This document shows, one piece after another, positions 1,271-58,895 of a stretch of DNA of 64,000 nt. Position numbers and translations under genes: made by a program. Source of the DNA: Cephalotus follicularis (taxonomy: Eukaryota > Streptophyta > Magnoliopsida > Oxalidales > Cephalotaceae); assembly GCA_001972305.1 (NCBI GenBank), contig BDDD01000047.1:592607-656606 (forward strand), written 5' to 3'. A model generated the notes under the pieces. The model had not been told where the DNA came from, searched no databases, and worked only from the letters and a program-made list of their open reading frames with translations. The stretch's first letter is position 1. Every line of letters starts with the position of its first letter.

Positions 1271-3782
1271 TGACACGACCCGTTCCCGCTAACTATACCG
1301 AGGATGAGCCCTGCCCGGGGATGGTGCTCCTGCCAACAACCCTGCTCTACTAAATACGCTAAAACTACAAAGGGGCGATCCTCTGACTTGCTACACAAGG
1401 CCAAACGACAAGCCTGGGATGGGCACGCTGCTAGCAGGGCAACCGGGGCAGAGGATCCAACTCCTCTCCTGCTTGTGTCCCCAGCACTACTTAACAAAAG
1501 CTCCAAAATGCGCCGTATCACTTATGCCCGAGGAGAACACCCACGGGCTCCTCACAAGATCACTTAACTTATCGCGCAAAAATCCCAAGGAGAAGGCCTG
1601 GGCTAAACCCGCGACAACATAAAACCCCGGAAGAGAGCAGACACGTGCAACTCACAAGCTCACTTAACAACCTGTATACAAAACATGCCCGGGGACACTC
1701 CTTGTCCTCGGGTGTTTTCTCCTCTACCCTACTCATCTAAACTAAACCACAAAACGCACAGCTTAACTTAAACCACTATAGCATAAACCGATCTCCCTTG
1801 CTAATCTAACCTTTGCTAGAAATCCGAGGACTTCCCAGCTCCTCAGATAGACTTGAAGACACCAAACTCATAATAGGAAATTTCCATAAAAACACAAGAT
1901 AAACTGAATCTACTAACTCAAAACATCCGTATCATTCTTGAAAGTATAAACTCATTACAAGTTTGACCCCTGACATAAACATACATTGCCTCCTCAGCTC
2001 GGCAAAAAGAATAGCATATCTTTCATGTTTAAGCTTATTATACCCCAGCAAAAAGCTCACGTCTACTCTACTACAAAAAGAAGGGTAAAGGAACCCAAAG
2101 AATGCCCAATGCTATGCAATGCTAGACGTCTTATCCGCATCATCCGAGATGCCGAGGTCAAAAAGCTACCTTCCTGAGCGCGCTACTACTGGTCTGGAGG
2201 ATCTTCTCCTCCTCCCGCTAGGTCCTCTGCAAAAGAATCTGTGAGGGGATTAGTCCAACTGTATAAGTGAATGAGAACAAAATATCGTCTGGTACATTCA
2301 TTAAAATGAATGTGCTGAAAGAAAGCATGCCATGAACATAATTAAGGATCCCAACTAGGGAAAAAAAACTATACAAATATAATTGTCATGGCTCACATAT
2401 GATGAAACGCTCAAAGGACATGAAAGAAAAGCTTACCCTATTCCTCTACTTAACTAATGCTCTAAGATACTTACAAAAGCTGAAGAAAACTTGAGATAAA
2501 ACAAAGACTTGATGTAGTACTCTGGAAGAGGATCCAACTTGGCCTTAGGAGCCGAAAAAGATAAGACTAGCTTGGAACTTACTTTTTTTTTGCTATGCTT
2601 TGCTTTGTTGTTTACATAATATAGTTGCCAACTTATAGTGGCGCTGAGCTGAGCTGATCTAGGCTGAAGCTGCTTGGCAGTATCTGCCGAGAACCCATGG
2701 TTCTCCTCTGAGCTTTCTATTTCTTTGATTTACTTACTTATCTGAGCTGAAAGCATGACTGCCGAGGACAAAGTCCTCCTCTAGAAGACATACTGAAAGA
2801 CTCTAATCTCTATTCTCGCAACTTAGATCCGTTGTACTCAAACCCTAAACACCATCATAGAGAATAGTGTAAAGGAGATCCAGGTAGGACCTGGGGACAG
2901 TCTCTCTCAGTTTTCCATCATAGACAGTAATAGATCCAGGAGGGTCGAGCTATGTACATAGTGCTCGGCTGCACACAAACCCTAAACACCATGATAGACA
3001 ATAGTGTAAAGGAGATCCAGGTAGGACCTGGTGGCAGACTCATTCGACTTCCCATCATAGACAATAGTAGACCGACGAGTGGGGTTGAGCACGTACGCGT
3101 TACCTTCTCTGAAAAGTTACTAATTCACTTAGAAGAAACTTGAGCTCTAGTTCTCGGAAACTCTCTCTCTCTCTTATGTCAAGGAAAACATAGCAAGATG
3201 CTGGGGAAACAAATTCCCGTTAGAAAGCTCTCACTGTACTGGAAATTGAAAACTGAATGAGTTATCAAGAACATCATGAAACAACTAGAAACATAGATGG
3301 GATGTCCCACTCACAGTTCTTGGTTGCGTTCTTACTGGCTTCCTCTGACAAGAACTTCTCCTCTTTCTCCTCGTCTGCTACTGCGCCTGGCTGCTTCTCC
3401 GCAAAGCTTGGAAAGCTTCAAACTGTTGTTCTCCTCTCGCTCGTCAAAGACAAGGAAGAAGAAGAAGAAGAAGAAGAAGAACTAGAGCTCTCTCTCACTC
3501 TAACATGCTGAAGCGAAGGGAAAAGCCAACACAAAAAGAAAATATCTCTTTGCTAATCTCCACAAGACCATCATTAAACCGTGGGATTTGGAAACTTCCT
3601 CAACAAGATTTGCACTTAAGTCCTCCAACTATTTCTAATCACACTTTACACTTGGACTTATAACAAAATCAACACTTAACTTTCCTCTCTTACTCAAATA
3701 AGTCCAAAGCCCATAAAAACAAAAATCATACACCATAGAAAAAGTTTTTTCTTAGACTCCAAAACAGCTGCGGGGCGTTACA
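1271..3782 (-). repeat. Gypsy LTR (3' LTR of the gag-only element)
   Basis: A 2,512-base LTR, TGACACGACC to GCGTTACA, paired with 13639-16130. It contains a duplicated box with CAAACCCTAAACACCATCAT (about 2838 and 2978) followed by AGGAGATCCAGGTAGGACCTGG, a GAA repeat (3448-3480) and C/T-rich tracts. Short translated stretches in it, such as an acidic Glu run at 3450-3490, come from simple repeats and are not genes. Confidence 0.92.
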
Positions 3783-3820
3783 TCCTCCCCACCTTAAGAA
3801 ATTTTGTCCCCAAAATTTCT
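3783..3820 (-). promoter_or_regulatory. Polypurine tract and adjoining hairpin
   Basis: On the minus strand the sequence next to the LTR reads TTAAGGTGGGGAGGA, a polypurine tract that primes plus-strand DNA synthesis. Directly upstream (3797-3820) stands a perfect 10-base inverted repeat, arm AGAAATTTTG with loop GGGA. The same arrangement occurs in two other gypsy elements of the window; see the findings. Confidence 0.85.
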
Positions 3821-4002
3821 CATCCCAGACCTCAGAGGAAAACTACTCTCACATCTATCGGTCTCTGCTGTGATGAAACTAGGCTACAAAATAACATACA
3901 AAAAGAGAAACACACAGAAGCTCAAAACTCACCCGAAGCGTTCTCGGAAGCCATCGTGTTCACTCTTCTGGCCAAAGAATAAACTCTCGCTGGACCCCAT
4001 AG

Positions 4003-4650
4003 TCAGCTCGATGGTCTGCTACCACCAGCTATGGCTGTACTGGTGTGGGGTGCTGTATAACTCGTTCTCTGCGCTCCTGATGGCTGAGATGATTGGGTCA
4101 TACCACTGGCCGTGGTCTGCTTCTTCACTGATGTTGTCGCAGGCGTCATCGCTTCACTGGGAGATTGCCGAGGACAGTCTCTCTTTATGTGCCCTTCCTC
4201 GCCGTACCTGTAACATGCAGAACTTCCCTTCTTGCATTCTCCTAAATGCAGCTTGCCACAAACTTCACACTGAGGCACCTTATTGCTCTTATATGAACTC
4301 CCTTGAACACTGCTAGTAACTGGAGCCGTTTGTGTCTGCTGAGAAGCTCCTCCTCTGACGTTGCCTGAGGACTGAGGTCCCCACTGTTTCTCAGCCTTGG
4401 AGGGGTTCTATACCTGCTCGGGCAGTGGGGTGGATCTCTTTCGGCTTTGCTCTTGACGTATCCTCTGGTCTGCCAAGCTCGTCTCTACTCTCTTAGCTGA
4501 CTCCACCGATTCGCCAAACACCGACCACTGAGAAATGGATACCATATGTCTGATCTCGGGTCTAAGGCCCTCAAGAAACTTCTGACATCGCTCATCTTGA
4601 TCTGGTACCAAGGCTGGAGCAAAATGGGACAAGTCCATAAAACGATACTC
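4003..4650 (-). pseudogene. Gypsy gag, C-terminal part with zinc knuckle (fossil)
   Basis: Minus-strand continuation of the gag at 12866-13495. It carries the conserved F.EGLRPEIRHMV box of chromovirus gag (about 4540-4590), a basic linker, then a zinc knuckle region (CEVCGKLHLGEC and CYRYGEEGHIKRDCP, about 4180-4270) and a Ser/Thr/Gln-rich tail. Protease and reverse transcriptase do not follow. The polypurine tract lies only about 200 bases further on. This is the basis for calling the element gag-only. Confidence 0.85.
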
Positions 4651-4655
4651 GTACT
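4651..4655. repeat. Target-site duplication GTACT, left copy
   Basis: GTACT abuts TGTAACACCC at 4656. The identical five bases at 12861-12865 follow GGGATATTACA. The gag reading continues across the pair. Confidence 0.95.
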
Positions 4656-6030
4656 TGTAACACCCCCGATTCGGAACCGGGATCACTCCCGATTCGGGAT
4701 CGGTGTGTCACACAAAACTGAACTAAAAACATATCAGGATCTTAATCTTAATCATCATCAATACGTGGTGGTTCTAAAAATCTAAAAACATGTATCATCT
4801 TGGAACATAAACTGAATCTGAAACATAATCTGAAAACTTTGTCATAAACCAAAAATCACAATACTGTTTAGATAACTGTCCTATACACGACCATAACACT
4901 ACTAAAAACATAACCAGATCAAACTCCTAGATGATCCTCTGACATAGGGTAACTCTCTCATCACACTTGCCCATGCTGTCCCTGAAAACCTGCCGCATGG
5001 AAAACAAAAACGATCATCCAATTTCGAATCATAAAACTAGTGCAGCTCATAATATCGTAAAACGATTACATAAATACATAATTCAACCGAAATCAGAATT
5101 TAACGGAATAGGGTTCAGAGTTTACCGAAAGCAGTCGAAACAGAGACAGAGCCATAATCACATCGCGGAACTGGAACAGATCACACCTATGCGAAGAGCG
5201 GAGTCGGAAAATTGTCCGAAAACATGTCGCCGGAGACAGCCGCCCGTGGGCTCACGCGCCGCCGCTGGCCGGCGCGTGTCCATCACGCGTCGCCGGTCAG
5301 TCACCAAAAGGGGCCAATCTGGACCGTTTAAGGCCGGTGATCTCATATCCATGGCGCGTTTGCCATGAAACCGCCGCGTTTGGCCAGAACATAAGCTTTT
5401 GACCGCGGTTGACTATGTTGCCGATCTGCTTTTCCGGCGTCGCCAATTGTCGAGGCTGGTCGGGTTCGCTTCCTCTCGATGCCAGGATGACGAATATGCG
5501 ATCGTCTTGTCGTGACGATCACCAGAGAAGAAGCTACGGCGCCAAACAGGTCCGGGAGAGAGAAGACGTCGTGCACGCCGCTGGAGATGTCGGCCGGTGC
5601 AGTGGTTGGGTGCGGTGGACTCAGGACGTTGTGGGGGTTCGACCGGTGTCTTCGCCGGTGCCATATCGGCACTGACGCCGGTGACAACGGGTGAAAGGGG
5701 AGAGAGAACGGGAGAGAGGGTGATGGCCGGGAGAGAGAGAGAGAGTGTGTGTGTGGGAGAGAAACAATTTTTAACACAAAATAGGGTTTTTGATTTTTCA
5801 AAAATGCTGAAAATGGGTTTTTAACACATAAATAAAAAGCAAAAATTATTTTATCTATTCATGGACTTAATATCAAAACCCACTAGGCTAAGGCTAAAAC
5901 CCGCTTAGCCAAGCCAAAAGCAAAACAAACCGAAAAATGGGCAGTCCACAAACCGAAAAAAAAAATCGACAGCCCACACCAAACAAATCGAAAAGCCCAA
6001 AAATTATATACGGAAAAACGGGATATTACA
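4656..6030 (-). repeat. LARD 3' LTR (short form)
   Basis: A 1,375-base LTR next to the polypurine tract. Its first about 360 bases and last about 1,000 bases match the two ends of 7815-12860. It includes a G/C-rich stretch (5220-5700) of CCGGCG-type sequence and a GA-rich run (5725-5762). Overlapping readings on both strands of that G/C-rich part are compositional and show no known domain. Confidence 0.9.
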
Positions 6031-6067
6031 ATTCCACCCCCCTTAAAAAGATTTCGTCCCGAAATCT
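6031..6067 (-). promoter_or_regulatory. LARD polypurine tract and hairpin
   Basis: The minus strand reads TTTTTAAGGGGGGTGGAAT up to the LTR. Directly upstream lies an 8-base perfect hairpin, AGATTTCG with loop GGA (6049-6067). Position and sequence match the plus-strand primer region of chromoviruses. Confidence 0.85.
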
Positions 6068-7799
6068 AAAACCACTACTAACCTGAAGCAAACAGATTAT
6101 CCCAACGGAACACACCATATCGTATCAGCAGAAACCTCAAACAATATCTAAAAACAGTATGGATAACCATTACAAACCATACTCTTAGGATTTCCCGAAA
6201 ATCGGGCATGATGTATTCGTTTATCGGACTCCATGCCACCTGATAAACCACAGTTTATATATTTGGAGATCAACTCTCATATCTCATCACAATCTATATG
6301 CTGGGCTCAACCCGCACCAAACTATATCACCACTAAATCAAAAATACCATTTGCATGCGAAGTACAATCCTTTCAATATTCTAAAAGATGAGCTTGATCA
6401 TATCCAATAATATCTTAAGCATCCAAAAGATAATCATGTCAATGGAATAATCAATTTAGTACATTCTAACTCTTATAATCTCCCGAAAATTGGGCTTGTA
6501 GTATTTGTTTATCGGACTTATGCCCCCTGTAAAGAAAACACAATTTATATCCACACTCCCGAAAGAGGAACAATCAGTTATAAATAGGCTCAGCCCTCAG
6601 TAAACCACAATTTAAATCCGAATCATCATTCCAACTCTCAAGTATGAACTCATGCATATCCAATACATCAACACACATCTCATAAGCACTGCCACATGTC
6701 GGCAGGTCGATAACTGAATAAACATATCTCTTTATTTACCTCTTACACATAACAAGTCTCATAAATCATAGTTTAGTTTATAAGCAAAAGGTACTCTTCG
6801 CAGACCACATAAAAAAATCCATATCGATGATCATAAGCAGTGAATGTGTGCAGAGGTGTAGCAGATATATATAATATCGATCATGTGAGATGCATATCTA
6901 GCATAAAAGATGTGAACAATGTCATATCATATCCATATAAGCCATAACACAACCTATCATCAGTAACTCCACCATATGTCATCATCCAAAGCTTTTTATC
7001 CATATCAATCCATGACCATACTATATCTATTACATTTCATATCTGTTTGCAGTCCATATCCACTTACAATCCATATCCGTTTATGATTCATAGCCATATA
7101 GCACTGCACTAGAAATATAGAAGTAAACTCCATATGTAGTTGACATCGAGGGGTTGACTAAATACAGATACTGTCTCATATCAGTATATATAAGTAGTTA
7201 ACTGTCACATCGGTTCATTCACAAACTATTTCGAGCATCCATGCAATGCCCATCCATTCAATAACAGTCCATCCGATCACTAACCGTTCAATAACGACCC
7301 ATTCGATCACTATTCATTTAACAACGGTCCTTACGATCACGATCTACTCATTAACGGTCCTTAACGATACTATGCGATCGATAACGATACACTAGCCATC
7401 CATACACTATCCATTCGCAAAGACCATTCATATTCTATCTCGATCAACCACTATTCGATACGGAAACTATTAAGACAACACTTATGCTTTTCGGCCCATT
7501 CGATCGATCGCTTAGCATTACGGCTCGTTCTATCGGTCTTTTAATCGCTATACAGTTGGCTCATACCGTGCATCCTTTTGTGAAACAGCTGACTCAGCTT
7601 CCGGATTAACATTCCTTAGTCGTCCGACTCTTCGTGTAATTAAGGTAACAAAACCGAAACGGAGTAAAACAAAGAGAGACAGAAAACTGGAATACAAAGG
7701 ACATATCGAAACGACTCTTAAGGAATAGCCCTAACCCAAATGTCTACCCATCTCACTGGTCAAACCTAGATAGGTCTTCTAAGGAAAGAAAAACATATT
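6068..7799 (-). other. LARD internal non-coding module
   Basis: No coding sequence is recognisable. In element sense the module contains a leader next to the primer site (about 7620-7799) that resembles the leader at 27122-27311, a degenerate tandem stretch of GATCACTAACCGTTCAATAACG-like units (7215-7400), a box around CACATGTCGGCAGGTC (about 6690-6705) and two copies of a roughly 60-base cassette with TATTCGTTTATCGGAC (6184-6250 and 6472-6545). The same items in the same orientation and similar order recur in the element at 50391-58895 and in the LTR at 58901-62793. Confidence 0.75.
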
Positions 7800-7810
7800 C
7801 TCTGATACCA
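7800..7810 (-). promoter_or_regulatory. LARD primer-binding site
   Basis: CTCTGATACCA is the exact reverse complement of TGGTATCAGAG, the tRNA-Met primer site. It lies four bases inside the LTR at 7815. Confidence 0.93.
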
Positions 7811-8076
7811 TAACTGTAACACCCCCGATTCAGAACCGGGATCACTCCCGATTCGGGATCGGTGTGTCACACAAAACTTAACTAAAAACATATCAAGATC
7901 TTAATCTTAATCATCATCAATACGTGGTGGTTCTAAAAATCTAAAAACATGTATCATCTTGGAACATAAACTAAATCTGAAACATAATCTGAAAACTTTG
8001 TCATAAACCAAAAATCACAATACTGTTTAGATAACTGGCCTATACACGGCCATAACACTACTAAAAACATAACCAT

Positions 8077-8267
8077 ATCAAACTCCTAGATGATCCTCTG
8101 ACATAGGGTAACTCTCTCATCACACTTGCCCATGCTGTCCCTGAAAACCTGCCGCATGGAAAACAAAAACGAATCAAACTCCTAGATGATCCTCTGACAT
8201 AGGGTAACTCTCTCATCACACTTGCCCATGCTGTCCCTGAAAACCTGCCGCATGGAAAACAAAAACG
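8077..8267. repeat. Tandem duplication, 96-base unit
   Basis: Two adjacent near-identical copies (8077-8172 and 8173-8267), each running from ATCAAACTCCTAG to the AAAACAAAAACG end of the CCGCATGG box. The corresponding place in the short LTR has one copy. Confidence 0.9.
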
Positions 8268-9019
8268 CGGCTGAGCAAACCTCAGTACAGATATAGAATC
8301 ATAAAATAGTTTACGAACAGTTTATGAAATAAATCAATTACGAAACAACATAAATACGAATCAAAACATATACGAATCAAAACAGAACAGTTTACGAATC
8401 ATAACAGAACGAAACAAAACTGTATCCGAAACAAAGCAGTTTACCAAAATGAAACAGTATCCGAAACAAAACAATATCATGCTCATTACAGTATCTGAAA
8501 CAAACACGATACGGTACAAAACATTTCATGAAACGAAACACTCTACGAAACAGAATAGAATAATTTGCGGAACAAAAGAAAATAGTTTCTGAATAGTACA
8601 AAACAAACAGATTACGGAACAAAAAAAAGCAGTAAACGATAAACGATAATTTGAAAGAAGTAAGATTTCAAAGTTAACTCAAAACAGAAATCTTAAGCAA
8701 TATATCAGTTTAAACATTCTTTGAAGTCACATATGAACTTTTCATAAAAACCAAATCCATAACTTTCAAAACGTATGACAAAATTTTCAAAACATAAGTT
8801 CCATACTGAGCCACATAACATATCACATAACATAAATTTGGCAAGGGAGTAGCTAATTCCACATGCCCACTAGAATTGAAGTTTACGGTACTACACAGTC
8901 AATTCTCACATATCATATATCAGATCAACCATCTGATCACATATTTGATCATTCACTAGATCACATATCATAAACTAGAATCGATTCATACGCTTCTATC
9001 ACATAGCGGATCCATAAAT

Positions 9020-11815
9020 CCATCTCATGGGATTCATTCATACACTCAGAGACGACGTAGACTAATCACACCGCTACAGAAGTGTCACGTCCCCGTACAG
9101 GCCCACGACGTGCCTATGGTACGCCCCATAGGTGGGTACAATACTCAGTATTTATTTCAAAAATAATTGATTTATCAAAATCAATTTAAAATCACATAAC
9201 ATATGTTTTCAAGAAACATATCGGAAAACAGCTCACAAAGGTATCATAACATACATTTCATAACATATCGTATCATTTCATATCATATGTATAAAGCCAG
9301 AATCATTTACAATGTCAAACCAACTTTATTTTTGAAACGTGTCAAAATCATAAAACATTATCAATTTCATAAACGAAGAAGCTTATCAAAATTGTTTTCA
9401 GTTCAAATATCAGATAGCCAAGGAACAAAAATATCCGTACATATCCATTAGGCAATAAAACGGGTTTTATTCAATCAAAAACCGATCGATGATAACCAAG
9501 AAAGGGAATCCATACCAAATACAGAATCTGAAATTATCTCAAATAAAATCAGAAGGATAACCAAGAAAGGGAATCCATACCAAATACAGAATCTGAAATT
9601 ATCTCAAATAAAATCAGAAGGATATCAAAGAAAGAAGGACATCCGTACTTCATTTACTAAAACAAAACTGAATTTATCCCAACAATACCGAAGGAGATAT
9701 CAAGGAACGAAACATCCGTACAAAAACATAAAAGTGAAACGAAATAGTTCCAATAAAAACAGATAGCCAAAGAACAGAAAATCCGTACATTTCAACAGCA
9801 GATTCGATTCAGATAAAACCGAATTCATTTAAACAAAACCGACAGAGAAATCCATAGCAAAGAGAATCCGTACAATAACGAAAGATAAAGCTGAAATTTA
9901 TTCCTTAACAAACCAGTAGGAGGGTATCAAAGAAAGAGTTATCCGTACAATAACGAAAGATAAAGCTGAAATTTATTCCTTAACAAACCAGTAGGAGGGT
10001 ATCAAAGAAAGAGTTATCCGTACTTAATCATAAAGGTGAAACGGGACAGTTCCAATAAAATCAGATAGCCAAAGAGCAGAAAATCCGTACTTTATTTCCG
10101 AAACATATCATAAAACATAACGAAGTCTATAAAACGAGAACATAACATAAAAATAATTTTAGTTCGATAAATAGATAGCCAAGGAACGATAGAAATCCGT
10201 ACCTCATGAGATCACCAAAACAACCTCAAGAATATGTATCGAGACTTCTCTAGACCACTCATCGGTTGTTGCAAATATCTAACAGAAATAAAATCGTTCT
10301 CATAAGGACTTGAAATAAAATCAGACCTCAACTCATGGGTCGTTGTACACTGTTCATGACCATATAACATAACAATAGGTTTAATACGTCCAATTCGCAT
10401 AAGTCTCATCTAAACATATTTTCGAATTCACTAAGGTAAGTCCAATTTGTCCAATCCACCTCATGGGATTTATTCAAACACTTAGAGACGTCGTAGACTA
10501 ATCACACCGCTACGGAAGTGTCACGTCCCCGTGCCAGGCCCACGACGTGCCTATGGTACGCCCCATAGGTGGGTACAATACTCAGTATTTATTTCAAAAA
10601 TAATTGATTTATCAAAATCAATTTAAAATCACATAACATATGTTTTCACCAAAAATATCGGAAAACCGCTCACAACGGTATCATAACATACATTTCATAA
10701 CATATCGTATCATTTCATATCATATGTATAAAGCCAGAATCATTTACAATGTCAAACCAACTTTATTTTTGAAACGTGTCAAAATCATAAAACATTATCA
10801 ATTTCATAAACGAAGAAGCTTATCAAAATTGTTTTCAGTTCAAATATCAGATAGCCAAGGAACAAAAATATCCGTACATATCCATTAGGCAATAAAACGG
10901 GTTTTATTCAATCAAAAACCGATCGATGATAACCAAGAAAGGGAATCCATACCAAATACAGAATCTGAAATTATCTCAAATAAAATCAGAAGGATAACCA
11001 AGAAAGGGAATCCATACCAAATACAGAATCTGAAATTATCTCAAATAAAATCAGAAGGATATCAAAGAAAGAAGGACATCCGTACTTCATTTACTAAAAC
11101 AAAACTGAATTTATCCCAACAATACCGAAGGAGATATCAAGGAACGAAACATCCGTACAAAAACATAAAAGTGAAACGAAATAGTTCCAATAAAAACAGA
11201 TAGCCAAAGAACAGAAAATCCGTACATTTCAACAGCAGATTCGATTAAGATAAAACCGAATTCATTTAAACAAAACCGAAAGAGAAATCCATAGCAAAGA
11301 GAATCCATACAATAACGAAAGATAAAGCTGAAATTTATTCCATAACAAACCAATAGGAAGGTATCAAAGAAAGAGTTATCCGTACTTAATCATAAAGGTG
11401 AAACGGGACAGTTCCAATAAAATCAGATAGCCAAAGAGCAGAAAATCCGTACTTTATTTCCGAAACATATCATAAAACATAACGAAGTCTATAAAACGAG
11501 AACATAACATAAAAATAATTTTAGTTCGATAAATAGATAGCCAAGGAACGATAGAAATCCGTACCTCATGAGATCACCAAAACAACCTCAAGAATATGTA
11601 TCGAGACTTCTCTAGACCACTCATCGGTTGTTGCAAATATCTAACAGAAATAAAATCGTTCTCATAAGGACTTGAAATAAAATCAGACCTCAACTCATGG
11701 GTCATTGTACACTGTTCATGACCATATAACATAACAATAGGTTTAATACGTCCAATTCGCATAAGTCTCATCTAAACATATTTTCGAATTCACTAAGGTA
11801 AGTCCAATTTGTCCA
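9020..11815. repeat. Large tandem duplication (about 1.4 kb unit) in the LTR
   Basis: Unit 1 is about 9020-10456 and unit 2 about 10457-11815. Both start with CTCATGGGATT and run through the GTGTCACGTCCCCG box, a long A-rich motif array and an end around GGTAAGTCCAATTTGTCCAA. They are almost identical by eye. The length difference comes mainly from one extra 75-base repeat in unit 1 (9874-9948 and 9949-10023). A 65-base repeat (9491-9555, 9556-9620) is present in both units. The duplication is probably recent. Confidence 0.9.
9405..11565. repeat. Amplified ATCCGTAC-ending motif array
   Basis: About 21 degenerate copies of a roughly 25-base motif, GATAGCCAAAGAA..AAATCCGTAC, recur at intervals of about 60-100 bases: 11 in the first 1.4 kb unit (near 9430, 9500, 9565, 9640, 9710, 9785, 9865, 9945, 10020, 10090, 10195) and 10 in the second. 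The LTRs of related elements hold few or degenerate copies (28560-28590; complement forms at 38565-38590 and 38635-38660), so the motif appears to have expanded here. Confidence 0.8.
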
Positions 11816-12551
11816 ATTCATCCAATTTCGAATCATAAAACTAGTTCAGCTCATAATATCCTAAAACGATTACATAAATACATAATTCAACCGAAATCAG
11901 AATTTAACGGAATAGGGTTCAGAGTTTACCGAAAGCAGTCGAAATAGAGCACAGAGCCATAATCACATCGCGGAACTGGAACGGATCACACCTATGCGAA
12001 GAGCGGAGTCGGAAAATTGTCCGAAAACATGTCGCCGGAGACAGCCGCGAGTGGGCTCACGCGCCGCCGCTGGCCGGCGCGTGTCTGTCAAGCGTCGCCG
12101 GTCAGTCACCAAAAGGAGCCGATCTGGACCGTTTGAGGCTGGTGATCTCATATCCATGGCGCGTTTGCCATGAAATCGCCGCGTTTGGCCGGAACAGAAG
12201 CTTTTGACCGCGGTTGACTATGTCGCCGATCTGCTTTTCCGGTGTCGCCAAGGGTCGAGGCTAGTCGGGTTCGCTTCCTCTCGACGCCTGGATGCCGAAT
12301 ATGTGATCGTCTTGTCGTGATGATCACCGGAGAAGGAGCTACAGCACCAAACAGGTCCGGGAGAGAGAAGACATCGCGCACGCCGCTGGAGACGTCGACC
12401 GGTGCAGTGGTTGGGTGCGGTGGACTCAGGACGTTGCGGGGGTTCGACCGGTGTCTTCGCCGGTGCCATATCAGTACTGACGCCGGTGATAGTGGGTGAA
12501 AGGGGAGAGAGAACGGGAGAGAGGGTGATGGCCGGGAGAGAGAGGGAGATA

Positions 12552-12588
<37 letters not shown>

Positions 12589-12860
12589 AGAGAAACAATT
12601 TTTAACACAAAATAGGGTTTTTTGATTTTTCAAAAATGCTGAAAATGGGTTTTTAACACATAAATAAAAAGCCAAAATTATTTTATCTATGCATGGACTT
12701 AATATCAAAACCCACTAGGCTAAGGCTAAAACACGCTTAGCCCAGCCAAAAGCAAAAGAAACCGAAAAATGGGCAGTCCACAAACCGAAAAAAAATCGAC
12801 AGCCCACACCACACAAATCGAAAAGCCCAAAAATTCTATACGGAAAAACGGGATATTACA

Positions 12861-12865
12861 GTACT
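12861..12865. repeat. Target-site duplication GTACT, right copy
   Basis: Exact match to 4651-4655, next to the outer end of the 7815-12860 LTR. Confidence 0.95.
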
Positions 12866-13495
12866 AATATACAGTCCCATTACCTTGCCGCAGATACGAA
12901 AACTCTTTTCTCTTCTCTTTAACGAAAGTGGGTGGGAAGAAGTACTGTCTAAATTCCGTCTTGAACTTCTCCCACATAATCTCTGCCGAGCTCTCGTGCC
13001 GAGCTACAAGAGCATCCCACCATCTTTGTGCAGCTCTTGCAAGAAAGAAAGACTTATTCCTTGCCGTCGTGTTCTCAACTATCTTCAACTAAACGAAGAT
13101 TTCTTATGGGTGTTTCAACCACGTATCTGAATCCATGGGGTCTCCTGTTCCCACAAAGGATGTTGCTCCCAACCATTGCATGCGTTCCACAGGGAGAGGT
13201 TGAGGTCTGGCCAAACCCATAGTTTGGACCAAAGTCATCATCGCCTACATCATCTCTGTAGGTACACTAGCGGGCATCAGAGGAGGCATACGCACAACGG
13301 ACTGCGCTGCTGGGACTTGCTCCTCTGGTACCTGCTGCGCTCCTTGCTCTTCAACTCCCACATCCGCTTGTTCCTCTGGTACTTCCATAGGAACCTCTTG
13401 CTCCATTGTCTGTTGAGGAATCACTCTTCCTCTACCTCTCCCATGACCTCTGACGCGACCTGCACGACCTTCGCTACGTGTCCGAGGTGGCATCT
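12866..13495 (-). pseudogene. Gypsy gag, N-terminal and capsid part (fossil)
   Basis: Minus strand. It starts with an Arg/Gly-rich N-terminus followed by a Glu/Val/Gln-rich linker (13245-13493), then the retrotransposon_gag (PF03732-like) core with AQRWWDAL, W..F...F...FFP and the FSYLRQG box (12866-13088). This core builds the particle. The gene is split by the LARD-like insertion 4656-12860 and resumes at 4650. It is a broken copy. Confidence 0.85.
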
Positions 13496-13622
13496 CCTTC
13501 TACAACAACATACTAACATATCACGAAAACGTCGCAACTATATGCAATGCATCAATGCAACCCAACATGAAACCCCACTAACTAGCTAGCTTAGAAAGCA
13601 CAAACAAACTCTCAAACGTACT

Positions 13623-13635
13623 GCTCTGATACAAA
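13623..13635 (-). promoter_or_regulatory. Primer-binding site of the gag-only element
   Basis: GCTCTGATAC on the plus strand is the reverse complement of the GTATCAGAGC core of the tRNA-Met primer site. It lies a few bases inside the LTR at 13639 and sets the minus-strand orientation. Confidence 0.85.
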
Positions 13636-13638
13636 AAC

Positions 13639-15488
13639 TGACACGACCCATTCCTGCTAACTCTACCAAGGAAGAGCCCTGCCTTGGGATGGCGCTCCTG
13701 CCAATAACCCTGCTCTACTAACTATGATAAAACTACAAAGGGGCGATCCTCTGACCTGCTACACAAGGCCAAATGACAAGCCTGGGCTGGGCGCGAAGCT
13801 AACAGGGCAACCGGGGTAGAGGATCCAACTCCTCTCCTGCTTGTGTCCCCAACACTACTTAACCAAAGCTCCAAAACGCGCCGCATCACTTAAGCCCGTG
13901 GAGAACACCCACGTGCTCCTCACAAGATCACTTAACTTATCACGCAAAAAGCCCGAGAAGAAGGCCTGGGCTAAACGCGCAACAACATAAAACCCCGGAA
14001 GAGAGCACACACGTGCAACTCATAAGATCACTTAACAACCTGTAGACAAAACATGCCTGGGGACACTCCTTGTCCTCGGGTATTTTCTCCTCTGCCCTAC
14101 TCATCCAAACTAAACCACAAAACGCACAGCTTAACTTAAACCACTGTAGCATAAACCTATCTCCCTTGCTAAGCTAACCTTTGCTAGAAAAACACCAAAC
14201 TCATAACAAGAAATATCCATAAAAACACAAGATAAACTGAATCTACTAACTCAAACCATCCATATCATTCTTGAAAGTATAAAATCATTACATGTTTGAG
14301 CCCTGGCATAAACATACATTGCCTCCTCAACTCGGCATGAATAATAGCATATCTTTCATGTTTAAGCTTATTATACCCCAGGAAAAAGCTCACGTCTACT
14401 CTATTACAAAAAGAAGGGTAAAGGAACCCAAAGAATGCCCAATGCTATGCAATGCTAGACGTCTAGTTTGCATCATCCGAGATGCCGAGGTCAAAAAGCT
14501 ACCTTCCTGAGCTCGCTACTACTGGTCTGGAGGACCTTCTCATCCTCCTGCTAGGTCCTCTGCAAAAGAATCTGTGAGGGGATTAGTCCAACTGACTAAA
14601 TGAATGAGAACAAAATATCGCCTGGTACATTCTTTAAAATGAATGTGCTGAAAGAAAGCTTCCCATGAACATGATTAAGGATCCCAACTAGGGAAAAACC
14701 ACTATACAAACATAATTGCCATGGCTCACATATGATGAAATGCTCAAAGGACATGAAAGAAAAGCTTACCCTTTTCCTCTGCTTAACTAATGCTCTAAGA
14801 TACTTACAAAAGCTTAAGAAAACTTCAGATAAAACAAAGGCTTGCTGAAGTACTCTGGAAGAGGATCCAACTTGGCCTGAGGAGTCGAGAAGGATAAGAC
14901 TAGCTTGGAACTTACTTTTCTTTGCTATGCTTTGCTTTGATGTTTACATAATATAGTTGCCAACTTATAGTGGCACTGAGCTAAGCTGATCTAGGCTGAA
15001 GCCTGCTTGGCAGTATCTGCCGAGAACCCATGGTCTCCTCTGAGCTTGCTATTTCTTTGTTTTACTTACTTATCTGAGCTGAAGGCATGACTGCCGAGGA
15101 TAAAGTCCTCATCTAGAAGACTCATTGAAAGGCTGTAATCTCTACTCTTGCAACTGAGATCTGTTGTACTCAAACCCTAAACACCATCATCGACAATAGT
15201 GTAAAGGAGATCCAGGTAGGACCTGGGGACAGTCTCTCTCGGCATTCCATCATAGACATTAGTAGACCGAGGAGGTTGGAGCTATGTACATAGTGCTCGG
15301 CTGCACTCAAACCCTAAACACCATCATAGACAATAGTGTAAAGGAGGTCCAGGTAGGAACTGGGGGCAGACTCGCTCGACTTCCCATCATAGACAATAGT
15401 AGGCCGAGGAGTGGGGTTGAGCACGTACGCATTACCTTCTCTGGAAAGTGACTAATTCACTTAGAAGAAACTTGAGCTCTAGTGCTCA

Positions 15489-15531
<43 letters not shown>

Positions 15532-16130
15532 GTCAAGGAAAACACACCAAGACGCTAGGGAAACAAATTCCCGTTAGAAAGCTCTCACTGTACCGGAAAT
15601 TGAAAACTGAATGAGTTATCAAGAACATCATGAAACGACTAGTAACATAGAAGGGATGTCCCACTCACAGTTCTTGGCTGCGTTCTTACTGGCTTTTTTT
15701 GACGAGAATTTTTCCTCTTTCTCCTCGTCTGCTACTGCGCCTGGCTACTTCTCCACTATGCTTGGAAAGCTTCAAACTGCTGTTCTCCTCGCGCTTGTAG
15801 AAGACAAGGAAGAAGAAGAAAAGGAATAACTAGATCTCTCTCTCACTCTAACCTACCAAAGCTAAGGGAAAAGCCAACACCAAAAGAAACAATCTCTTTG
15901 CTAATCTCCACAAAACCATCATTAAACCTTGGGATTTGGAAACTTCCTCAACAAGCTTTGCACTTAAGTCCTCCAACTATTTCTAATCACACTTTACACT
16001 TGGGCTTATAACAAAATCAACACTTAACTTTCCTGTCTAACTCAAATAAGTCCAAAGCCCATAAAAACAAAAATTATACACCATAGAAAAAGTGTTTTCT
16101 TAGACTCCAAAACAGCTGCGGGGCGTTACA
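13639..16130 (-). repeat. Gypsy LTR (5' LTR of the gag-only element)
   Basis: A 2,492-base partner of 1271-3782, collinear along its length. It differs by scattered substitutions and by a much longer CT dinucleotide run (about 15488-15528). Its left end touches the primer-binding site, which makes it the 5' LTR of this minus-strand element. Confidence 0.92.
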
Positions 16131-50390: not shown

Positions 50391-53246
50391 TGTAACGCCC
50401 CGAATTTCATAAATAATTATTATGAAATTGGTGCGTGTACAGTTGTGATAAATCGATAGAGCCTGGAGTAATAAAAAGGCATTACGCATTTACGTCGTAA
50501 TTGTGTTAGCTAAGACGGCTAATAAAGTCTAATTTTAATGCGCGACAATAAAGCCCAAATGCTCGAAATATTATTGCGATTATTTTGGTGGTTGTTCGGA
50601 TAATTTATGTCGCGATTCGCAGAAAAATCGGGACCCGGACCTTAGTATTTTGCTAGAAAATGCTAAGCGAGAAGCAAAAGATATAAAGGAAAGGGAGAGG
50701 ACACGGGCGCATCACGCGCCCGTGCAAAAGAAAGAGACAGCGGGCGCACCAGGCGCCCACGCCAGAGAGAGAGAGAGAGATTGGGAGAGAGATCAGAGCA
50801 GAGGGAGAGAGATCGTGCCGGAGCCAGCTACCGGATCGGGAGAGCGCGGCGGTCAACCCAGGCACGCCACCGACCGGTAATCTCTTCCCCCTCCTTCTCT
50901 TTTTCTTCTTTTTCCTTTCTTCCCCGTCGCTGTTTGCGCAAGCTGCCGGCGTTCCCGGCGCCGTTATCGTCACGGGTGGCTTGGGTTTTGGTGTAGATGG
51001 CTAGCTCTTGCCATTTTGACCACTGGTGAGGCGTGATTCGGCCGGAATCACTAGGCTGAGTCAACTCAGCGAGTCGACTCACGGCCGCCTGAGACGGCGC
51101 TTTTGGCGCCGAGTCTCGGCGAGTCACGGGCATGGGTGTGTATAACTGGTGAATGTGTGGCATTTTTGGGTGGTGATCGGACCTGTGGAGGTCCGGCGAG
51201 TTGACTCAGTGAGTCACGACTCACTGCCGGCCGTGGCGCGGCGTTCGACGCCGATTCCTGGAGAGTCTTGGCCAGTTTTGAGTAGACCGTTCAATGTAGA
51301 ACCCGTTGATGGGTGTTTCACTGCCTGGTTGTGTCGGTCAGAATTCGGCCGGCGTTTCGGCGACGGAAATGTTTTATGTGTCGAACATAACAGAAATGTG
51401 TTCTATGTGCAGTGTACGAGCGGCAATTGGATTTGACAGTGAGGAACTGATCAATTGGCAAGAACCGGGTTCGGTTCAACGGTTTCTGGGAAAGGTTCAG
51501 CAATTGAACCTGCAGCTTGACTGTGCTGGTGATATTGCGATTCCTAACTTGGATTCAAAGGTAGGGGAAGCTATACATGCAAGTTTGAGTTCAATAATAT
51601 TGTATTGCCATTGATGAAATGCATGGTTTGCGGATTGTGAATTGTGTAATTCTACTAGGGTTGCTACGAATAGTTAACCTGTAATGCATATTGCGTTTTA
51701 CAATGATTGCGGATTGAATGACATGTGTTTTATGATTGAGTCCTATTGGTTTTGAGACGTGTTGAAGGAACCATGTTTTGGTTCGCTTAACCGTCGACGC
51801 TTAGGAAAGAAGCGTCGATGCTGTGGATTGTTATACGGAGAATGAGTCCTGATTCGCGATAAACGTCAACGCTTACAGAAAATGTCGACGCCACGATTCG
51901 TTGTGTGTGAGAATGGACGCGTGTGCCGTAGACGCCTGAGGTTCCTACCTCAGAGCATCGACGCCAAATGGATGAGATGTTGACGCGTAAAGTTTCTAGT
52001 TGAAAGCATTTACGCTAAAAGTTAAGCGGCGACGCTTAAGTGACTGGGTTGAACATTAACGCCTATATGGTGCATGTTGACGCGAATAGAGCCCGTTTGC
52101 ATTATTGAGCATATGTTTGCATTGCATACAATTGTTGATTGAGCTATCATCTGTTTTCTAAAATGTTATTCATTTTAGAAGTGTATAAATGGTTTATTAA
52201 ATCATTGTTATATGGAAATGTATGTTTTCCAAAAGGATTGTGAAAGTGGTTTTAAGGGATTGAGAAACTGTTATGCGAAAATGAGTATTTTCGTGTATTC
52301 GAACATGATTCGAATGACTGGTTTTACATTTTAAAATCTATTGTTTTCGAGTATTTTATTATACATTGGAACTACTTGAAATGATTTCAAAAGGATTGTT
52401 ATATATATTGAGCAAATATATATGTTGCAAGTATTTATATCTATAAATTACTTGAAGTGTTTGAAGGGAAATGTATTGTTGCAAGTATTTTAGGAAGCAT
52501 AATTTACTTGGGAAATGGAGTGTTATATATATATTTTTGACAAATATATATATGTTGTAAGTATTTATACTTTTAAACGTTTTGGAAACGAACTGCAGTG
52601 TTTTGAACGAGACGTTTTGATCAAGTATTTATTTTATAAATTACTTGAGTGGTATTGTGTGTGCTGTGATTGCACTGTTATCGTGATTATGAAAAGTGTT
52701 GGTACTTAGCCACCGTGCTAGTATCGTCTATTGTGTCCTGATTGTTGTTACTTAGCCGCCGCGCTAGTAACGTGGATGTTATTGAATTGATTGTGATTGA
52801 GTGTTGCCGCTAGCGGGGTAATGTTGGTACTTAGCCGCCGTGCTAGTATCGTGAGTGTTGTGAGTGAGGACAAAGGCTAACCCCCTACAATTTCAGATTG
52901 ATTTCAGGTTGATGCAGCGGATTGTTACCGTTGAGCTCCGTGGAGCAAATGGAGTTTTATGTTGTTTTTACTTTAGAGAAATGTTAATGGATCATTGTAA
53001 TAAATGAATCGATGTATTGATGTAATATTGTTCACGCTCTGTTTGAGGGCAGTTAACTTTGATGATGTTTACTGTTGTAGCATGTAGTATGGGATGCATG
53101 TTACGTTTTAATTCGGCTTATATTTGAATGCTTCCGCAAGTTTTTTATGGCATTGGAAAGTTTTAAATTTATTTTAAATTGCATAAGCCGGATTTATATG
53201 TTGATTGCCACCACTATATATGTCGGTTGTGAAACGGGGTGTGACA
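50391..53246 (+). repeat. Gypsy 5' LTR, 2.9 kb
   Basis: Paired with 56085-58895. Order of content: A/T-rich start, a GA-rich and G/C-rich leader with CGGGCGCACCAGGCGCCC-like inverted words (50720-50760), AAAGGTAGGGGAAGC (51557, a possible splice-donor-like site), a cluster of AGCGTCGACGCTT palindromes (51785-52095), repeated TACTTAGCC(A/G)CCG(C/T)GCTAGTA words (52704, 52748, 52831), then GTGAGGACAAAGGCTAACCCCC (52864). Translated stretches in the G/C-rich leader are not genes. Confidence 0.93.
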
Positions 53247-53250
53247 GCAG

Positions 53251-53262
53251 TGGTATCAGAGC
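53251..53262 (+). promoter_or_regulatory. Primer-binding site, tRNA-Met
   Basis: TGGTATCAGAGC, an exact copy of the canonical site, four bases after the LTR end. Confidence 0.96.
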
Positions 53263-53399
53263 TTATATTCCTTTTATAAGTTATCGTTGGGATACTATCC
53301 TCGGCAAGTAAATAATAGGATGAAGGAACTTGTCCAGGCTAATAGGTTCCTTGGCAATTAACGATTGTTTCCTAGAGATGAACCATGACATCTTTCCTT

Positions 53400-53770
53400 A
53401 TAGGAAACAAAATGGATGGAAGGAGAAAACGCGAAAGGCCTTGAGCCGTTAATGAAAGTGTTCCTGAGGAAGTAAATGACAGAACGGACCTTATGAGCCG
53501 TATAGCGGATTACTTCCAGCAGCAGATGGCTGCGGATGCTGCAAACATGATGGATACGCGTCGATTGTACGCACAATGTATAACCAAGGCATATGATTCC
53601 AAACCATGTTGTGCGGCATGATGGAAATCAGTTCGGAAGGAATCTTGACAGATTCATGGAGCATAATCCTTCTAGTTTCAATGGGGAACTTGATGTGACT
53701 ATTGCTGGAAGATAGTTACAAGATCTGGGGAAGATCTTTACTGTTATGGGTTGCCCGGAAGGCTGACCTT
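53400..53770 (+). pseudogene. Gypsy gag remnant (fossil)
   Basis: Plus-strand patches: MDGRRKRERP, MSRIADYFQQQMAADAANMMD, then FMEHNPSSFNGELDVTIAG, recognisable as the start of a chromovirus gag and similar to the gag at 20714-21900. The resemblance ends soon after about 53770, where the non-coding module begins. Broken. Confidence 0.72.
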
Positions 53771-56049: not shown

Positions 56050-56084
56050 AATCTCGGGACGAGATTTCTTTAAGGAGAGGAGGA
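56050..56084 (+). promoter_or_regulatory. Polypurine tract and hairpin
   Basis: TTTAAGGAGAGGAGGA runs up to the LTR at 56085. Directly upstream is a 7-base perfect hairpin, AATCTCG with loop GGA (56050-56066). Same layout as 3783-3820 and 6031-6067. Confidence 0.87.
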
Positions 56085-58895
56085 TGTAACGCCCCAAATT
56101 TCATAAATAATTATTATGAAATTGGTGCGTGTACAGTTGTGATAAATCGATAGAGCCCGGAGTAATAAAAAGGCATTACGCATTTAAGTCGTAACTGTGT
56201 TAGCTAAGACGGCTAATAAAGTCTAATTTTAATGCGAGACAATAAAGCCCAAATGCTCGCAATATTATTACGATTATTTTGGTGGTTGTTCGGATAATTT
56301 ATGTTGCGATTAGCGGAAAAATCGGGACCCGGACCTTAGTATTTTGCCAGAAAATGCTAAGGGAGAAACAAAAGATATAAATGAAAGGGAGAGGACACGG
56401 GCGCATCACACGCCCGAGCAAAAGAAAGAGACAGCGGGCGCACCAGGCGCCCGCGCCAGAGAGAGAGAGAGAGATTGGGAGAGAGATCGGAGCAGAGGGA
56501 GAGAGATCCCGCCGGAGCCAGATACCGGACCGGGAGAGCGCGGCGGTCAACTCAGTCACGCCACCGACCGGTAATCTCTTCCCCCTCCTTCTCTTTTTCT
56601 TCTTTTTCCTTTCTTCCCCGTCGCTGTTCGCGCAAGCTGCCGGCGTTCCCGGCGCCGTTAGCGTCAGGGGTGGCTTGGGATTTGGTGTAGATGGCTAGCT
56701 CTTGCCATTTTGACCACCGGTGAGGCATGATTCGGTCGGAATCGGCCGGAATCACTAGGCTGAGTCGACTCCCCGAGTCGACTCACGGCCGCCTGAGACC
56801 GCGCTTTTGGCGCCGAGTCTCGGTGAGTCACGGGCATGGGTGTGTATACCTTGTGAATGTGTGGCGTTTTTGGGTGGTGATCGGACCTGTGGAGGTTCGG
56901 CGAGTTGACTCAGTGAATCACGACTCACTGCCGGCTGTGGCGCGGAGTTCGGCGCCGATTCTTGGCGAGTCTTGACCGGTTTTGAGTAGACCGTTCAATG
57001 TGGAACCCGTTGATGGGTGTTTCACCGCCTGGTTGTGTCGGTCGGAATCCGGACCGCGTTTCGGTGACGGAAATGTTTTATGTGTCGAACATAACGGAAA
57101 TGTGTTCTATGTGCAGTGTACGAGTGGCAATTGGATTTGACAGTGAGGAAGTGATCAATTGGCGAGAACCGGGTTTGGTTCAACGGTTTCTGGGAAAGGT
57201 TCGGCAATTGAACCTGCGGCTTGACTGTGCTGGTGATATTGCGATTCCTAACTTGCAATCAAAGGTAGGGGAAGCTATACATGCAAGTTTGAGTTCAATA
57301 ATATTGTATTCCCATTGATGAAATGCATGGTTTGCGGATTGTGAATTGTGTGATTATGTTAGGGTTGCTATGAATAGTTAACCTGTAATGCATATTGCGT
57401 TTTACAATGATTGCGGATTGAATGGCATGTGTTTTATGATTGAGTCCTATTGGTTTTGAGACGTGTTCAAGGAACCGTGTTTTGGTTCGCCTAACCGTCG
57501 ACTCTTAGGAAAGAAGCGTCGATGCTGTGGATTGTTATACGAAGAATGAGTCCTGATTCGCGATAAACGTCGAAGCTTATAGAAAACGCCGATGCCACGA
57601 TTTGTTGTGTGTGAGAATGGACGCGTGTGCCGTTGACGGCCGAGGTTCCTACCTCAGAGCATCGATGCCAAAGGGATGAGATGTTGACGCGTAAAGTTTC
57701 TGGTTGAAAGCATTTACGCTAAAAGTAAAGCGGCGACGCTTAAGTGACTGGGTTGAACATTAACGCCTGTATGGTGCATGTTGACGCGAATAGAGCCCGT
57801 TTGCATTATTGAGCATAAGTTTGCATTGCATACAATTGTTGATTGAGCTATCATCTGTTTTCTAAAATGTTCTTCATTTTAGAAGTGTATAAATGGTTCA
57901 TTAAATCATTGTTATATGGAAATGTATGTTTTCCAAAAGGATTGTGAAAGTGGTTTTAAGCGATTGAGAAACTGTTATGCGAAAATGAGTATTTTCGTGT
58001 ATTCGAACTTGATTCGAATGACTGGTTTTACATTTTAAAATGTATTGTTTTCGAGTATTTTATTATACATTGGAACTACTTGAAACGATTGCAAACGGAT
58101 TGTTATATATATTGAGCAAATATATATGTTGCAAGTATTTATATCTATAAATTACTTGAAGTGTTTGAAGGGAAATGTATTGTTGCAAGTATTTTATGAA
58201 GCATAATTTACTTGGGAAATGGAGTGTTATATATATATTTTTGACAAATATACATATGTTGTAAGTATTTATACTTTTAAACGTTTTGGAAACTAACTGT
58301 AATGTTTTGAAAGAGACGTTTTGATCAAGTATTTATTTTATAAATTACTTGAGTGGTATTGTGTGTGCTGTGATTGCACTGTTATCGTGATTGTGAAAGT
58401 GTTGGTACTTAGCCACCGTGCTAGTATCGTTATATAGTATGTACTGCATCACTGTGCATTCATACATGACATGCGTTATCATTGAAACCGAACTGTATTT
58501 ATACTTAGCCGAGTGAGGACAAAGGCTAACCCCCTATAATTTCAGATTGATTTCAGGTTGATGCAGCGGATTGTTACCGTTGAGCTTCATGGAGCGAATG
58601 GAGTTTTATGTTGTTTTTACTTTTGAGAAATGTTAATGGATCATTGTAATAAATGAATCGATGTATTGATGTAATATTGTTCACGCTCCGTTTGAGGGCA
58701 GTTAACTTTGATGATGTTTACTGTTGTAGCATGTAGTATGGGATGCATGTTGCATTTTAATTCGGCTTATATTTGAATGCTTCCGCAAGTTGTTTATGGA
58801 ATTGGAAAGTTTTAAATCTATGGTAAATTGCATAAGCCGGATTTATATCTCTATTGCCACCACTATATATGTTGGTTGTGAAACGGGTTGTGACA
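56085..58895 (+). repeat. Gypsy 3' LTR, 2.8 kb
   Basis: Partner of 50391-53246, collinear, with scattered substitutions and fewer TACTTAGCC repeats near 58405-58510. Confidence 0.93.

Follow-up and report, generated by a model that had tools for sequence, protein, structure and literature searches.

A covarying hairpin directly upstream of the polypurine tract in plant chromovirus-type Ty3/gypsy elements

A 64,000-nucleotide stretch of the Cephalotus follicularis genome (contig BDDD01000047.1, positions 592,607 to 656,606 of the forward strand; hereafter the window) contains three long terminal repeat (LTR) retrotransposons, E1, E2 and E3, each with a hairpin immediately before the polypurine tract (PPT) that adjoins its 3' LTR. 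We find that this hairpin, with a stem of 6–10 bp closed as a rule by G-C and a purine-rich loop of 3–4 nt, is real and under selection, a cis structure belonging to plant chromovirus-type Ty3/gypsy elements and to relatives without pol: it extends well beyond the three elements of the window, and its arms co-vary across families with pairing maintained, so that the structure itself is well supported. On balance we lean towards a cis-acting hairpin that helps to make the plus-strand primer. Structure at the PPT as such is already known; the hairpin upstream of it appears to be a further form.

The hairpin in the window and across the genome

In element sense, the hairpins read AGATTTCG-GGA-CGAAATCT in E1 (minus strand, 6067-6049; stem of 8 bp), AGAAATTTTG-GGGA-CAAAATTTCT in E2 (minus strand, 3820-3797; 10 bp) and AATCTCG-GGA-CGAGATT in E3 (plus strand, 56050-56066; 7 bp), and in all three alike TT(T)AAGG comes next, then the purine run and then the start of the LTR, whose TG lies at 6030, 3782 and 56085, respectively. 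This direct reading bears out an earlier note on this DNA, made from the letters alone, which had described a perfect inverted repeat before the PPT of the three elements. When both strands of the window were scanned for perfect stems of at least 6 bp with loops RGR or RGGR, 15 were found: one of 11 bp at 56785, the 10-bp hairpin of E2, the 8-bp hairpin of E1, six of 7 bp (that at 56050 among them) and six of 6 bp. By the standard of the window, then, a 7-bp hairpin is unexceptional, and it is the location that is exceptional. As RNA, the hairpins at 56050 (z -3.9) and 3797 (z -5.4) fold better than all of 200 shuffles; folding of the one at 6049 is weaker (z -1.9, 12 of 200 shuffles equally good). 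No Rfam family matched the window at gathering score.

PPT/LTR junctions were collected from the 1.58 Gb assembly, a single plant genome, by PPT/LTR-start patterns or by the Pfam chromodomain, and the hairpin was not used in locating them. Pattern 1, TTAAGGNNGGNAGNATGTAANNCCC (PPT plus LTR start), gave 2806 genome matches versus 5 for the reversed control, and three additional patterns gave 40, 1773 and 579. We took 50 of the 100 listed places for pattern 1 (the first 30 as given and 20 chosen for unusual PPT letters), 20 of the 40 for pattern 2, 20 of the 100 listed of 1773 for pattern 4, and 20 of the 100 listed of 579 for pattern 5, these last chosen for varied PPT letters before the upstream sequence was viewed. 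The chromodomain search scored 150 among 25784 candidates, from which 30 loci and then 20 more were taken; in 43 of these 50 the chromodomain at the integrase C-terminus runs into a PPT junction (nine anchored by hand), and seven were dropped, L039 and L143 having no junction and L131, L135, L146, L147 and L148 appearing host-like by eye. With the three window elements this made 156 junctions (50 + 20 + 20 + 20 + 43 + 3), and 152 were retained after four (L024, L094, L099 and L233) were dropped by eye before the final clustering; a first clustering was also without L019. Loci L001-L008, fetched by a pattern holding half the hairpin, are uncounted, and L055 and L056, identical over the printed stretches, may be one locus assembled twice. 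The LTR start is backed by LTR pairs for the window elements and is elsewhere the TGT after the purine run. The collection is without Athila and Tat, and a guessed CRM pattern had no match in the genome; the clade names Tekay, Reina and Galadriel are putative assignments.

A perfect stem of at least 6 bp with a 3–4 nt loop was sought in the region some 48 to 15 bases ahead of the LTR. It is present at 96 of the 152 junctions versus 4 of 1098 controls, which were placed 60 to 570 bases beyond this region on its upstream side in those 61 junctions whose flanks were long, and this excludes chance; at least 6 of 7 pairs are formed at 130/152 junctions versus 40/1098 controls. In a first pass, perfect stems per set numbered 21/30, 12/20, 12/20, 27/43 and 3/3, with 0/30 (pattern 1), 2/43 (chromodomain) and 0/3 (window) in the stretch 100 bases further up, and shuffled sequences reached a perfect stem in 2.4–3.5% of cases for the non-copia sets and 5.0% for the three window sites. 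Copia-like junctions (AAGGGGGAGATTGTTRG) had a perfect upstream stem in 0/20 and one 100 bases further up in 2/20 (shuffles, 6.7%). The usual loops are GGA, AGGA, GGGA and AGGG, with AGA, AAA and GAA in single copies; the GG(G)A loop that the earlier note took to be fixed is thus among the usual forms and is not invariant. Junction L037 has a shortened hairpin, GAATCT-CGGG-AGATTC, perfectly paired despite bases missing relative to its relatives.

Covariation was followed between clusters defined on the flanks outside the hairpin. Single linkage at 70% gave 16 clusters, a procedure that may lump families (L117 and L231 carry other stems yet fall into the largest cluster). Fourteen of the 16 cluster medoids have a perfect inner stem, with 9 distinct stems, and over all 16 the inner pairs are Watson-Crick in 94 of 96 cases, L221 and L251 (5/6 each) being counted by hand; the claim that both arms vary jointly with pairing kept holds. 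The pair tables were built on intact-stem medoids, first 16/17 and then 14/16, and 'all paired' is there partly a matter of choice. The stem types (5' arm/3' arm) include ATTTCG/CGAAAT, ATCTCG/CGAGAT, ATTTTG/CAAAAT, AATTCG/CGAATT, ATCTGG/CCAGAT, GCGACG/CGTCGC, TCGACG/CGTCGA, TCAACG/CGTTGA, CCAACG/CGTTGG and CTCTTG/CAAGAG. With pairs numbered from the loop towards the foot of the stem, the first is G-C in 14/14 medoids, and pairs 2 to 6 show three, two, four, two and four Watson-Crick types, respectively, which implies at least 10 two-sided changes on whatever tree. When the 3' letters were redealt among the 14 intact medoids, 48.2 +/- 3.5 cells were paired (maximum 62) versus the observed 84, and 4.3 +/- 1.3 pair types arose versus the observed 10; neutral coalescent simulations of similar divergence never exceeded 62 of the 84 paired cells or 8 extra types. 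With an independent tool, a 12-row alignment scored 0.903 for covariation versus 0.266 +/- 0.064, none of 500 shuffles scoring as high, and slid registers gave at most 0.276; paired cells and cells with a two-sided change were likewise matched by 0/500 shuffles each. Covariation tests across families, the kind of check that the earlier note had proposed, were thus positive within this one genome: base pairs co-vary between families, as in structured RNA.

A degenerate search that allowed C or T with A or G at pair 4 found 3028 places versus 7 for its control, and among the 95 listed with letters pair 4 was, by eye, C-G in 45, T-A in 48, T-G in 2 and C-A in none; these places form two big family groups, and relatedness contributes to the counts. 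Family F (seven copies) is ambiguous, with A-C at pair 4 in four (L040, L053, L054 and L058).

Shared ancestry combined with CpG decay could mimic such covariation, CG in both arms passing to TG and CA, which still pair. Pairs 1 and 2 do sit in CpG context, and double changes of exactly this kind occur in the single copies L125, L129 and L057. Without these two pairs, however, 36/36 cells are paired over the 9 distinct stems (which were chosen as perfect), at least 8 two-sided changes remain, and the same letters redealt give 14.2 +/- 2.9 paired cells with a maximum of 25; we regard this explanation as very improbable. Separately, the TGTGAC-LTR family has two sub-forms, AAATTTCG/CGAAATTT and AAATTTTG/CAAAATTT (L242-L244 and L260 against L093, L096 and L248), which differ by a two-sided change at a CpG pair.

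Coding capacity of the hairpin

The earlier note had offered a conserved peptide tail in autonomous relatives as an alternative explanation. On that reading the hairpin would be a by-product of the pol C-terminus. Four chromodomain families (D, E, F and G) do translate the hairpin, its core encoding (A/S/P)-T-R-(T/A)-(S/L) with codons ACG AGG ACG or ACG AGG GCG, and in L020 and L030 a frame with a YPRLF tail continues through it. In family I (L130), however, the G-AGGA-C core is one base off that frame and reads CTT GAG GAC AAG, or LEDK; and in a pol-stop scan that covered 33 junctions, the Tekay-like L011, L016 and L029, which have a pol C-terminus, show an open frame ending in ...YPHLF whose stop lies ahead of the hairpin, 46 nt from the LTR. 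Between families E and G, moreover, TCG...TCG (Ser, Ser) becomes CCA...TTG (Pro, Leu), both arms changing and the amino acids with them while pairing stays intact. The hairpin is thus retained whether translated in either frame or left untranslated, and with one frame in four families, another in a fifth and none in three copies the peptide alternative fails; coding constraint was rejected on these grounds, and we consider a peptide by-product scarcely credible. Together with the covariation, this supports the earlier suggestion that a nucleic-acid structure is selected for where plus-strand synthesis is primed.

Position, folding and a probable role in plus-strand priming

In the 14 medoids, pair 7 lies 16–20 nt from the first base of the LTR (18 nt in five medoids, 19 nt in three, and 16, 17 or 20 nt in two apiece); stem lengths being unequal, the true stem foot lies from 14 nt (E2) to 21 nt (families E and G) from the LTR. 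In RNA folds of 17 medoids in 100-nt context, the hairpin has a probability of about 0.5 or more in 12. An intrinsic-terminator-like arrangement of hairpin and T-run was considered and rejected, families D, E, F and G having no T-run after the stem.

Position, near-constant distance from the LTR and presence in elements without pol make it probable that the hairpin serves plus-strand priming, and its retention in elements without pol implies that it acts in cis. On this reading it would fold in the genomic RNA and serve primer formation there: reverse transcriptase (RT) copying the RNA would meet the stem just after U3 and the PPT and might stall, which would leave the RNase H centre (12–13 bp behind that of the polymerase in the Ty3 and cauliflower mosaic virus enzymes) close to the PPT/U3 junction, and the stalled RT could favour the cut that creates the 3' end of the primer. 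The stalling step is possible and is the least certain part of the scheme. The retroviral junction cut falls about two bases before the end of the integrated LTR; a cut so placed puts pair 7 14–18 nt away, and the stall would need to come one to six bases short of the stem. The spacing is therefore compatible with a ruler, with no precise fit. The published distances are, in the passages available, about 13 bp between the active sites of Ty3 RT (PMC5371799) and cleavage by cauliflower mosaic virus RT 12 and 13 nt from the polymerase site (PMC11363490); a passage of PMC4439019, citing Suo and Johnson, holds that RNA structure influences polymerisation-dependent cleavage via RT pausing. More tentatively still, the widespread covarying hairpin may be a physical ruler, by which an RT stall leads to RNase H cutting at PPT/U3 and the plus-strand primer is defined structurally, apart from the purine tract, a task that Sireviruses would have solved differently, with a repeat around the PPT.

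A number of results weigh against this account, some bearing on the covariation and others on folding or spacing. The best of 5000 shuffles equals the observed pair-type counts of 10 and 8; in the 12-row alignment, the pair-type count is matched by 218/500 shuffles and is not significant, nor is the number of pairs with a two-sided change (200/500). Copia-like junctions, too, reach at least 6 of 7 pairs in 6/20. The 100-nt RNA folds make the hairpin improbable in L049 (0.04), L133 (0.05), L012 (0.02) and L037 (0.01), and give 0.26 in L045, low values being due to competing pairings. The medoids hold four G-U cells versus one A-C cell, all at pairs 7–8, and with so few of either, action as RNA and action as DNA are indistinguishable. 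The distance of 16–20 nt exceeds 12–13 bp, so that a stall must precede the stem by a few bases, and the data come from one plant genome only.

Two further explanations accept the structure and differ on what it does. It could serve another step in the life of the genomic RNA, namely packaging, dimerisation, a 5'-3' contact or the guarding of the PPT from mispairing. Elements without detected pol would be expected to retain any such cis signal, and in Ty3 RNA (PMC11381356) the tip of a short hairpin holds the dimerisation site, and the PPT falls within a lower-probability paired region. Against this stand the hairpin's place immediately before the PPT, the narrow range of spacing between pair 7 and the LTR in 14/14 medoids counted, and loops that are not self-complementary; we hold such a role to be possible, though not the one we would choose. 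Alternatively the hairpin could act as DNA, in single-stranded cDNA or as a protein-bound palindrome, and as DNA all three window hairpins outfold 200/200 shuffles (z -5.0 for E1, -6.1 for E2 and -4.4 for E3). Four Watson-Crick types at each of two inner pairs would hardly be tolerable for a sequence-specific binder, and sequence-specific palindrome binding is disfavoured accordingly; a DNA role dependent on structure alone is unaffected by this argument, and action as DNA is in all unlikely.

Returning to plus-strand priming, the hairpin is probably a working part of how abundant plant Ty3/gypsy elements copy themselves. Such elements are abundant in plant genomes, and here one junction pattern alone accounts for the 2806 matches given above. 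A covarying structure at near-constant spacing from the cut is a concrete, testable component of PPT function, the mechanism of which is called unknown even for retroviruses in a passage of PMC4439019. The combination of hairpin, PPT and LTR start could also mark 3' ends in annotation, in autonomous and non-autonomous elements alike.

Related structures and the elements of the window

The nearest published relative is the inverted repeat of Sireviruses; the PPT helices of human and simian immunodeficiency viruses (HIV and SIV) also stand close. As described in the available part of the 2010 report (PMC2829016), the Sirevirus repeat encloses the PPT and extends into the LTR, and its authors propose that it aids correct primer formation; the likeness is an inverted repeat with an exact position at the terminal PPT, and the difference is that the Sirevirus loop contains the PPT and the right arm is inside the LTR, whereas here the whole hairpin is upstream of the PPT. 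A repeat of that type, with its left arm bordering the PPT and its right arm in the 3' LTR, was found in none of the 16 medoids, and the longest exact repeat spanning the PPT measures 4–7 bases in 16/16 medoids versus at least 11 bases in 11/20 copia-like junctions (L069-L088). Among the copia-like junctions of this genome a Sirevirus-type inverted repeat across PPT and LTR is visible.

HIV-1 and SIV have conserved helices at the central PPT and the PPT (PMC4439019), which likewise place RNA structure near the RNase H cut with RT pausing as a suggested link, but no compact upstream hairpin is described in the passages available. The U-box or T-box of several retroviruses and Ty1 and the TCTT of fission-yeast elements (PMC10085805, in part) resemble the hairpin as cis elements directly upstream of the PPT that are important or suspected in plus-strand priming, and differ in being sequence motifs. 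Many Tekay-like junctions have a T-rich spacer between hairpin and PPT, and a U-box/T-box-like spacer and the hairpin may coexist there. Ty3, of the same superfamily, also primes its plus strand from a PPT, here one situated in a lower-probability paired region, and an upstream hairpin goes unmentioned in the available parts of PMC11381356 and PMC5371799. Within the text available, PMC3605345, PMC6317226 and PMC11963269 mention PPTs with no hairpin (the words hairpin and palindrome are absent from the first two; the third is without hairpin and has palindrome in its reference list only), PMC3902901 and PMC6911290 treat quadruplexes and insertion-site palindromes, and PMC3185511 and PMC12789967 hold nothing of this kind. 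Searches of the open-access literature, outside which most subscription papers fall, did not find the hairpin itself.

E1 to E3 are LTR retrotransposons by their paired LTRs with TG...CA ends and by their target-site duplications (TSDs), GTACT, ATCTC and GATAT, respectively (Table 1). E2 (1271-16130, minus) is interrupted by the nested E1 (4656-12860, minus), and E3 spans 50391-58895 on the plus strand. The LTR pair pieces of E1 are 5014-6030/11818-12860 and 4656-5013/7815-8172, and GTACT flanks 4656-12860 on both sides. A primer-binding-site-like TG(G)TATCAGAG adjoins the 5' LTR of all three, reading TGGTATCAGAG in E1 and E3 and TGTATCAGAGC in E2, and the PPT adjoins the 3' LTR; we take these stretches to match initiator tRNA-Met. 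The earlier note had two of the three elements lacking pol, and this must be amended: pol was found in none of them by open frames of at least 70 aa, tblastn or Pfam on five frames, and no pol of their own with a chromodomain was detected. The internal regions of E1 (6031-7814) and E3 hold no open frame of at least 70 aa, except one mostly within the E3 LTR, and tblastn searches with parts of the RT from elsewhere in the window yielded a single match (E 0.55). In E2 a zinc-knuckle-like piece within 4006-4407 (PF00098, E 7.5e-4) falls under its cut-off. We treat E1 to E3 as putative non-autonomous chromovirus relatives, by likeness of LTR, PPT and hairpin only.

Table 1. Features of E1, E2 and E3, in positions of the window
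Feature	Positions	Strand	Basis
E1 hairpin, 8 bp, loop GGA at 6057-6059	6049..6067	-	direct reading and folds
E1 spacer and PPT, hairpin to 3' LTR	6031..6048	-	direct reading; LTR start 6030 from LTR pair and TSD
E1 3' LTR (TGTAATATCCC...GTGTTACA)	4656..6030	-	LTR pair pieces and TSD
E2 hairpin, 10 bp, loop GGGA at 3807-3810	3797..3820	-	direct reading; RNA z -5.4
E2 spacer and PPT	3783..3796	-	direct reading
E2 3' LTR	1271..3782	-	LTR pair 1270-3782/13638-16130; TSD ATCTC
E2 gag remnant (Retrotrans_gag)	12867..13088	-	Pfam PF03732, E 1.6e-10
E3 hairpin, 7 bp, loop GGA at 56057-56059	56050..56066	+	direct reading; RNA z -3.9
E3 spacer and PPT	56067..56084	+	direct reading
E3 3' LTR; 5' LTR begins 50391	56085..58895	+	LTR pair; TSD GATAT

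The 5' LTR of E1 seems to be interrupted by an insert of 3.6 kb (8173-11817) with tandem duplications at 9017-9948 and 10453-11385. Elsewhere in the window, 25600-23600 (minus) holds remnants of another Ty3/gypsy pol, from RT to RNase H, with frameshifts and stops, and no PPT end was recognised downstream of it. Outside plants, a PPT/LTR pattern matched 75 times, at 2 loci of IMG/VR and 70 of bacterial and archaeal genomes, and no plant relative was recognised among them; 7 of the 75 have some stem of at least 6 bp, by eye none of them this hairpin. The bacterial and archaeal matches to TTTAAGG-GGG-AG-ATGT-A (L151-L220) include repeats reading GGCGGGGAGGATGTCAA, which resemble right ends of IS200/IS605 (TnpB) elements.
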